From the NCBI RefSeq assembly GCF_023035815.1, contig NZ_CP073166.1, forward strand, positions 1-24,401: a DNA stretch of 24,401 nucleotides. The letters run 5' to 3'. Made by a program: the position numbers and the translations under genes. Below, piece by piece: positions 1-24,401 of this stretch. Under the pieces are notes generated by a model. That model was not told the origin of the DNA, did no database searches, and was given only the letters and a program-made list of their open reading frames with translations. The stretch comes from Borrelia parkeri. Its GTDB lineage: Bacteria > Spirochaetota > Spirochaetia > Borreliales > Borreliaceae. The stretch's first letter is position 1; each line of letters starts with the position of its first letter.

Positions 1-26
1 ATTATAATTTGTTAATAGTATAGAAT
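1..26. other. Hairpin telomere core, ResT-type boxes
   Basis: The end carries TATAAT at 3-8 (box 1-like) and TTAATAGTATA at 12-22 (box 3-like). Known Borrelia telomeres have this arrangement, and the telomere resolvase ResT recognises it. The first eight bases, ATTATAAT, are self-complementary, as expected where the two strands join at a hairpin tip. Whether a few terminal bases are missing cannot be judged. Confidence 0.75.
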
Positions 27-40
27 GTTTATCCATTTAT

Positions 41-197
41 ATAACTCATAAGTTTCCACATATAACTCATAAGTTTGCTACTAAAAATTAATAGTTTACA
101 CAAAAAACTCATAAGTTTAATTTACCTTTTTATACAAAATTAATAGTTTGCATAAAAAACTCAATAGTTGCTTTAAAAAAATATATAGTTACCTCCT
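41..197. repeat. 21-bp phased repeat array, left telomere
   Basis: Seven degenerate 21-bp units start at 41, 62, 83, 104, 135, 156 and 177. Each contains an AGTT core (at 51, 72, 93, 114, 145, 166, 187). Units 1, 2, 4 and 6 have the dyad AACTNNNNAGTT; units 3 and 5 have AATTAATAGTTT; unit 7 is the weakest. Spacing is exactly 21 within each group, and the groups of four and three are separated by 31. All cores therefore fall on one face of the helix. Function is unknown; binding sites for a telomere protein or a regulator of the adjacent gene are possible. Confidence 0.85.
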
Positions 198-234
198 CTC
201 TTTGCTAGATTAATAGTATTATATTTATATATAT

Positions 235-23409: not shown

Positions 23410-24168
23410 TCACAAAAATATATGAGATAATAGTTGTTTTTGCAATCTATTAGTAGATTTATAAGGTATACCAAGTTGTTTGAGGTGTAGATTAATATAA
23501 GATTTGAGGGTATGTAGGTTTTTGTTTGATGTTTGATCAAGGAAGAAGGATTCAACCAGAGAAGCAATAGTAGAGAGATTTTTATTAGTATGGTTTTTAA
23601 ATAGATCTAGGTTATTTTTATTAAGTTTTAGTCTGTTAAAAGACTTAATATAGTTTATTTTTTCGTATAAGTCTAGTATACAAGGTTGATTATCTAATAG
23701 GATATTGAGATGAGTATTATTGTAATAGATATTATTGAAGGTATTTTTAGACTTAGCAATCAAAGAGTATATAGAAATTATATGTTTTGTAGTGATAGAG
23801 AAGTTGAATATATTTTTAGCGATGTAGTTAATTTTGTATGCATGAATAGAAGATAAAATATTTTTATTTAAATTTTTAATGGAAGTAGCAATAACATTGG
23901 GTTCGAGTAAAGAATATTGTTGAAACTGTAGACCATTACTTAATGTATAAGTAATAATATTGTTATTAAAAGTATAAAATATTTTGATAAAAGGATCTTT
24001 TAGATGTGTTAAAGGTATGCCGGAAGCCATAATAATGCCGAGTAAATTGTGAATAGTGCTAGAAGAGAGAATAAGATAATTACTAATGAGAATAAATTCA
24101 TCAGGATTAATTTTATGAATAGGGATATAAGGTATATTATTAGTAAATAAATTTTTTAGAGAGAACAT
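23410..24168 (-). CDS. Unrecognised telomere-proximal protein, right copy (252 aa)
   Basis: Inverted twin of the gene at 235-996, one residue shorter (SIKNLNK instead of SIIKNLNK). The four substitutions relative to the left copy are I to N in AKSKITF, P to L in NNLDPFKNH, T to N in HTNKTLSTI and L to Q in RLQKLLLSH. The frame is intact and reads inward from the telomere. No ribosome site is evident. The coding strand is G-poor, as on the left. No known domain is recognised. Near-identity of both copies fits telomere exchange or gene conversion between ends. Confidence 0.7.
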   Translation of the reverse strand: MFSLKNLFTNNIPYIPIHKINPDEFILISNYLILSSSTIHNLLGIIMASGIPLTHLKDPFIKIFYTFNNNIITYTLSNGLQFQQYSLLEPNVIATSIKNLNKNILSSIHAYKINYIAKNIFNFSITTKHIISIYSLIAKSKNTFNNIYYNNTHLNILLDNQPCILDLYEKINYIKSFNRLKLNKNNLDLFKNHTNKNLSTIASLVESFFLDQTSNKNLHTLKSYINLHLKQLGIPYKSTNRLQKQLLSHIFL

Positions 24169-24204: not shown

Positions 24205-24361
24205 GGGAGGTAACTATATATTTTTTTAAAGCAACTATTGAGTTTTTTATGCAAACTATTAATTTTGTATAAAAAGGTAAATTAAACTTATGAGTTTTTT
24301 GTGTAAACTATTAATTTTTAGTAGCAAACTTATGAGTTATATGTGGAAACTTATGAGTTAT
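24205..24361. repeat. 21-bp phased repeat array, right telomere
   Basis: Mirror image of the left array and identical to it over this stretch. The AACT cores (AGTT on the other strand) keep the 21-base spacing and the single 31-base step. It ends about 37 bases before the start of the telomeric gene. Confidence 0.85.
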
Positions 24362-24375
24362 ATAAATGGATAAAC

Positions 24376-24401
24376 ATTCTATACTATTAACAAATTATAA
24401 T
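24376..24401. other. Hairpin telomere core, right end
   Basis: Inverse of 1-26: TATACTATTAA at 24380-24390 (box 3-like) and ATTATA at 24394-24399 (box 1-like), ending in self-complementary ATTATAAT. Confidence 0.75.

Follow-up and report, generated by a model that had tools for sequence, protein, structure and literature searches.

We analysed the ends of a linear plasmid of Borrelia parkeri (contig NZ_CP073166.1 of assembly GCF_023035815.1); the window is the whole stretch of 24,401 nucleotides (positions 1 to 24,401). Each end carries a hairpin telomere, an array of seven short sites with the core AGTT, most of them 21 base pairs (bp) apart, and, on the inner side of the array, a gene for a protein of 253 amino acids (aa; 252 at the right end) that is predicted to have the fold of a telomere resolvase without its catalytic residues. 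The features are as follows.

1 to 22, plus strand: left hairpin telomere, with the conserved resolvase motif TTAATAGTATA at 12 to 22 in direct reading
43 to 54, plus strand: first array unit, a full dyad AACTCATAAGTT with its AGTT core at 51
64 to 75, plus strand: second array unit, a full dyad with its core at 72
85 to 96, plus strand: third array unit, a half site with its core at 93 and the telomere octamer TTAATAGT inside it at 88 to 95
106 to 117, plus strand: fourth array unit, a full dyad with its core at 114
118 to 144, plus strand: stretch within the 31-bp step from core 114 to core 145, which divides the array into four and three units; a 30- or 31-bp step is also found in other lineages
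137 to 148, plus strand: fifth array unit, a half site with its core at 145 and TTAATAGT at 140 to 147
158 to 169, plus strand: sixth array unit, a dyad AACTCAATAGTT with its core at 166
179 to 190, plus strand: seventh array unit, a half site with its core at 187
210 to 217, plus strand: the telomere octamer TTAATAGT for the fourth time, in the gap that separates the array from the start codon
235 to 996, plus strand: gene for the 253-aa protein, predicted telomere-resolvase fold without the catalytic set
23410 to 24168, minus strand: second copy of the gene (252 aa), right end
24205 to 24361, minus strand: right array, with cores (low coordinate) at 24348, 24327, 24306, 24285, 24254, 24233 and 24212
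24380 to 24401, minus strand: right hairpin telomere

In the first 300 bases of each end, AGTT occurs exactly at 51, 72, 93, 114, 145, 166 and 187 (mirrored on the right), and the series of seven cores with a single 31-bp step that had been read from the sequence is thus present at both ends. The dyad AACTNNNNAGTT lies at 43, 64, 106 and 158 and at the mirrored positions; these 8 copies (4 left and 4 right, as had been read from the sequence) are all that the window holds. Over positions 37 to 196 the self-match at lag 21 is 0.568, against 0.335 expected (z 6.3), a value that none of 2000 dinucleotide shuffles attained at any lag from 5 to 59. The two arrays had been described as identical, which is correct for 41 to 196; at 197 an extra T on the left is the first difference. 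Further inside the terminal repeat, 23 bases around the gene stop (987 to 1009) are present in the left copy and missing from the right. The telomere octamer TTAATAGT occurs 10 times in the window, with 8 copies in the terminal 220 bases (those at 88 to 95, 140 to 147 and 210 to 217 and their mirror images among them). TAGTATA is reported as the Borrelia telomere motif (PMC10353223; PMC12958805), and the array is indeed linked to the telomere and sited between the resolvase motif and the gene. A promoter scan of positions 1 to 400 returned a single match, on the minus strand, a count below that of shuffled sequence. Given this outcome, leaderless -10 boxes that were spotted by eye in relatives are not claimed.

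The gene family to which the 253-aa protein belongs (BB_G34 in strain B31) is present in 27 of the 36 genomes of the family that were searched. No credible family match to the 253-aa protein came from Pfam, NCBIfam or PHROGs, nor from sequence searches of the PDB (best E 0.014), and it was placed by fold and profile comparison alone. For two models of the protein, the top eight VIA rows are all ResT, TelA and TelK, matched at the resolvase catalytic-domain fold. The profile of the gene family is related to a ResT-like profile, A4 (E 2.9e-9, compared with 0.006 to 0.8 for 14 controls), and its match to ResT itself is weak. The catalytic set of Arg, Lys, Arg, His and Tyr is complete in none of the 27 aligned sequences: the first arginine is absent from all 27, the second is found in 3 and the tyrosine in 3 others, never both together. 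Also lacking is an N-terminal domain with a hairpin-binding module, as nothing precedes the aligned catalytic part (model residue 17 pairs with ResT residue 163 and model residue 1 with TelK residue 206; in the profile alignment, residue 17 corresponds approximately to residue 116 of a 521-aa ResT-like protein). The computed models and alignments identify the 253-aa protein as a shortened relative of the telomere resolvases, with their predicted fold and without their catalytic set. From the loss of catalytic residues, we predict that it does not resolve telomeres.

The closest sequence profile to the gene family is that of ResT-like proteins of 353 to 681 aa with PF16684 matches, encoded by G010, G013, G014, G015 and G016 as extra genes besides ResT (L196 to L205). 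Like the gene studied here, these can be telomeric, with 5 of 10 loci near a contig end (starting 266 to 388 bp from it) and pointing inward. They differ in that their catalytic columns are intact (invariant in the six that were aligned) and in that the 4 copies tested have no lag-21 signal in front of them.

Across relatives the unit sequence changes and the spacing is kept. Arrays gathered from regions upstream of homologous genes are built of other units with the same beat, the common steps being 21, 21, 21, 30 or 31, 21 and 21 to 22 bp; the overall layout at most of the ends examined is four sites at 21 bp, one step of 30 or 31 bp, and two to four more sites at about 21 to 22 bp. This beat of 21 bp with one 30/31-bp step is found at telomeres of both relapsing-fever and Lyme Borrelia, on cores of AGTT or ACTTTA. 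Lyme borreliae have the core ACTTTA with steps of 21, 30 and 21 bp (G026, G023, G022), and the left end of C16 in the B31-like genome (G021) has steps of 21, 21, 21, 30 and 21 bp. G021 is equated with B31 because the match on its C15 has the coordinates of lp28-2 in that strain. Exceptions are a 41-bp step in G017, a 28-bp step at G002 C8L and steps of 20 bp in both G004 and G006; several relatives have no clear core series. Further units were seen at Lyme-group telomeres (the K78 lp28-1 end, PBes lp25, G031 C13, and G035 C8 and C11); lag 21 or 41 is prominent in K78, G031 C13 and G035 C11 and less clear in PBes and G035 C8.

De novo autocorrelation gave 21 as the best lag in 18 of 30 scored ends and in 0 of 12 array-less control ends. 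Six of the 30 had been found via the AGTT pattern itself, and the others had best lag 21 in 12 of 24 cases; two further ends were dropped as too short, and one (G035C8) was probably wrongly trimmed. The controls include three near-duplicate pairs, and one of them, C6L, peaks at lag 22. Of the 26 ends with a recognised box, 21 have their first core exactly 34 bp from the AGTA of the telomere (the exceptions being 32, 35, 19, 33 and 30 bp), and 19 of the 26 have cores at +34, +55, +76 and +97; this set contains many near-copies, and 3 of an initial 29 ends were dropped because no box was recognised in them. Among the 15 pairs formed by six representative spacers of 30 bases, 11 were no more alike than shuffles. 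Identity between the three main spacer types is 6 to 13 of 30, the highest value being attained by 16 of 2000 shuffles, and three pairs within types are related.

The complete dyad AACTNNNNAGTT is the consensus in the window's type only; other lineages have one half of it (AGTT) or the ACTTTA unit. The proposal of a dimer on each dyad is therefore not indicated. The original prediction had staked itself on related telomeres keeping the 21-base spacing and the dyad: the spacing is maintained and the full dyad is not. A search of the 36 genomes for four AGTT cores at the array spacing found matches in 10, but the reversed control matched in 16, and thus the genome count says little. Of the 74 rows printed, 59 map to contig ends by manual count, and the other 15 map elsewhere. 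By appearance, the 15 resemble coding sequence or simple repeats, save for one array-like run of AGTT at an internal position in G003 (C13:13337-13404), possibly a former telomere.

The B. parkeri genome has 14 linear contigs, and thus 28 ends; C2 to C4, whose ends show no such motif as marks a telomere, were left out as presumably circular. Arrays are present at 12 of the 28 ends, 11 of them of the window's type (type A) and one, at the right end of C9 (C9R), with a different unit built on CATAGTT. Exact AACTCATAAGTTT has 33 copies in the genome, three per type-A array and none elsewhere, with 8 more places one base off. The array is absent from the other 16 ends (both chromosome ends and 14 plasmid ends), which implies that the system is optional or end-specific. 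Thus, an array beside both telomeres is correct for this plasmid but not in general, and C9 to C15 have type A at one end only. The gene is found at all 11 type-A ends, with one copy broken by a stop; no open reading frame of at least 70 aa was identified in the terminal 3 kb of C9R.

The resolvase fold without a catalytic set in the adjacent protein changes the picture that had been drawn from sequence alone. On balance we lean towards the array being a binding platform for the protein of the adjacent gene, held at a fixed distance from the hairpin, on which an end-specific nucleoprotein complex forms that also controls its own gene. That the 253-aa protein binds and functions at the array is what we infer. 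One protomer would clamp each 21-bp unit, all of them probably on one face of the helix. Side by side, beginning 34 bp inside the resolvase motif, the protomers would form a nucleoprotein complex at the plasmid end. Such a complex may shield or mark the hairpin against a nuclease such as SbcCD (SbcD is encoded in this genome). Alternatively, it may shield the end against unwanted action of ResT, including the reverse, telomere-fusing reaction; ResT is reported to be able to fuse telomeres as well (PMC2525819). Through the inner sites the complex could repress its own gene, so that the supply of protein would track the number of telomeres; self-repression is proposed because the innermost site lies 19 to 63 bp before the start codon in the five copies measured. 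Ends with a decayed gene would be served in trans by intact copies. A platform acting in cis is favoured because the telomere side of the array is rigid and the start-codon side is not, and because the protein is structurally kin to proteins of hairpin ends.

A parallel to a protective role is offered by TelN of phage N15, a protein with the resolvase fold whose hairpin end has degenerate repeat motifs beside it. TelN is reported to protect N15 hairpins against Mre11-Rad50 without a need for catalysis, and its authors speculate on a protective assembly bound to the repeats (PMC12624138). TelN differs in being an active, full-length resolvase of one phage, whereas here a separate dead relative accompanies a phased array on many co-resident plasmids. 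A stronger version of end protection is a dedicated capping system comparable to the shelterin of eukaryotes, in which dead resolvase relatives, each coevolving with its own helically phased array set at a constant distance from the hairpin, would mark and protect certain ends and compete with ResT. We regard this version as tentative and distinctly less probable than a binding platform as such.

Somewhat unlikely, in our judgement, is that the array is an operator only, through which the protein or another regulator switches the gene, the telomere being an incidental location. The short distance between array and start codon in the five telomeric copies is what an operator would have, and recombinase folds can become repressors, as seen in MrpR of SPbeta, which is reported to have a tyrosine-recombinase fold, to have lost recombinase residues and to bind a repeated DNA element (PMC10516654). 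SroF of phi3T, known here from PDB titles alone, is likewise a repressor with a tyrosine-recombinase fold, and the 253-aa protein shares with these repressors a recombinase fold without an active site. The same geometry is also found in the B. coriaceae-like genome (G002) at C22R and C11R ahead of a two-gene unit in which the dead-resolvase gene is second. At C22R its start overlaps the stop of a 245-aa gene (L019:2253-2990), whose product has no assigned family and, by eye, a signal-peptide-like start.

Counting against an operator are the rigid 34 bp on the telomere side beside the loose 19 to 63 bp on the gene side, and the presence of at most two units at the four examined gene copies that lie over 1 kb inside their contigs (G005 C5, G003 C11, G013 C6, G014 C3). 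Also against it, arrays can outlive the adjacent gene. Fifteen ends of G002 have an AGTT array, and the gene is intact at 3 (C11R, C13R, C22R) and not at 12; several of these 12 are near-copies, and 6 of them have remnants of the gene detectable with tblastn. In eight aligned G002 ends, seven of them without an intact gene, 62 of 64 cores are intact (manual count in the printed alignment). Identity there is 0.936 in the cores and 0.844 between them, and 11 of 166 circular shifts, a number that counts the real one, are as high. Against such retention of the cores stands lp73 of B. nietonii, where the gene is in pieces and the array has lost 2 of its 7 cores. Three plasmid ends of the B31-like genome (L177, L178 and L179; 52971, 16821 and 28601 bp) have ACTTTA arrays with 21/30-bp steps and no detectable gene. 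Each of these three arrays is followed by a nearly identical open reading frame of 155 to 157 aa.

We consider it improbable that the binder of the array is ResT or an abundant nucleoid protein and the adjacent gene a bystander. In favour of such a binder, the telomere octamer TTAATAGT recurs in two of the window's units (at 88 and 140) and once more at 210. ResT (PDB 8vs5) shares with the 253-aa protein the predicted catalytic-domain fold and the group of organisms, and it acts at the same hairpin ends. The 253-aa protein is unlike ResT in lacking the catalytic set and the N-terminal domain, in being encoded at the telomere and in having an array in front of its gene. The units differ outside the AGTT core even within one cell (type A and C9R), which suggests diversified binders, yet this genome encodes a single PF16684 protein, to which ResT in nine other Borrelia genomes is 72-92% identical. 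Array-less telomeres in the same genome are presumably processed by ResT too.

We give still less credence to a repeat without function whose copies are homogenised by recombination among telomeres. Copies within a genome are nearly identical, and sharing of telomere sequence between chromosome and plasmids is documented (PMC9158201), but recombination of like sequences leaves the same spacing among unrelated sequences unexplained. Least probable of all is a replication or partition element (iterons or a centromere): the spacing of about 21 bp resembles that of iterons, but the adjacent protein has a predicted resolvase fold, and partition-type genes lie elsewhere in the window at 17-20 kb. 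Near-identical arrays are present on nine contigs of a single genome. Plasmids that share such an element should be incompatible, and a parS-like centromere would be specific to its plasmid, so that the suggested role in segregation is unlikely.

Two other elements were considered. The vmp DHS is described as an element of 214 bp that lies downstream of vmp and has an inverted repeat of 31 bp (PMC6011951), and a tandem 21-bp repeat of lp17 (d20) is described as lying inside that gene (PMC3303823) and is taken, from this description, to be different. BB_G34 and hypothetical proteins named 'PF-88 family' belong to the same gene family as the 253-aa protein, and neither a function nor an array was found for them in the open-access literature searched. 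Nor did that literature, as distinct from subscription papers, yield a description of the array or of the family's resolvase fold.

Little is understood of how bacteria protect the hairpin ends of linear replicons, and TelN protection of N15 ends was reported as recently as 2025 (PMC12624138). The results suggest a likely identity for the family of hypothetical proteins to which the 253-aa protein belongs, and provide a candidate protein and candidate sites for end protection in the Lyme and relapsing-fever spirochetes. The subtelomeric regions of these organisms also house genes for antigenic variation; telomere capping, control of ResT and control of subtelomeric genes thereby become directly testable.
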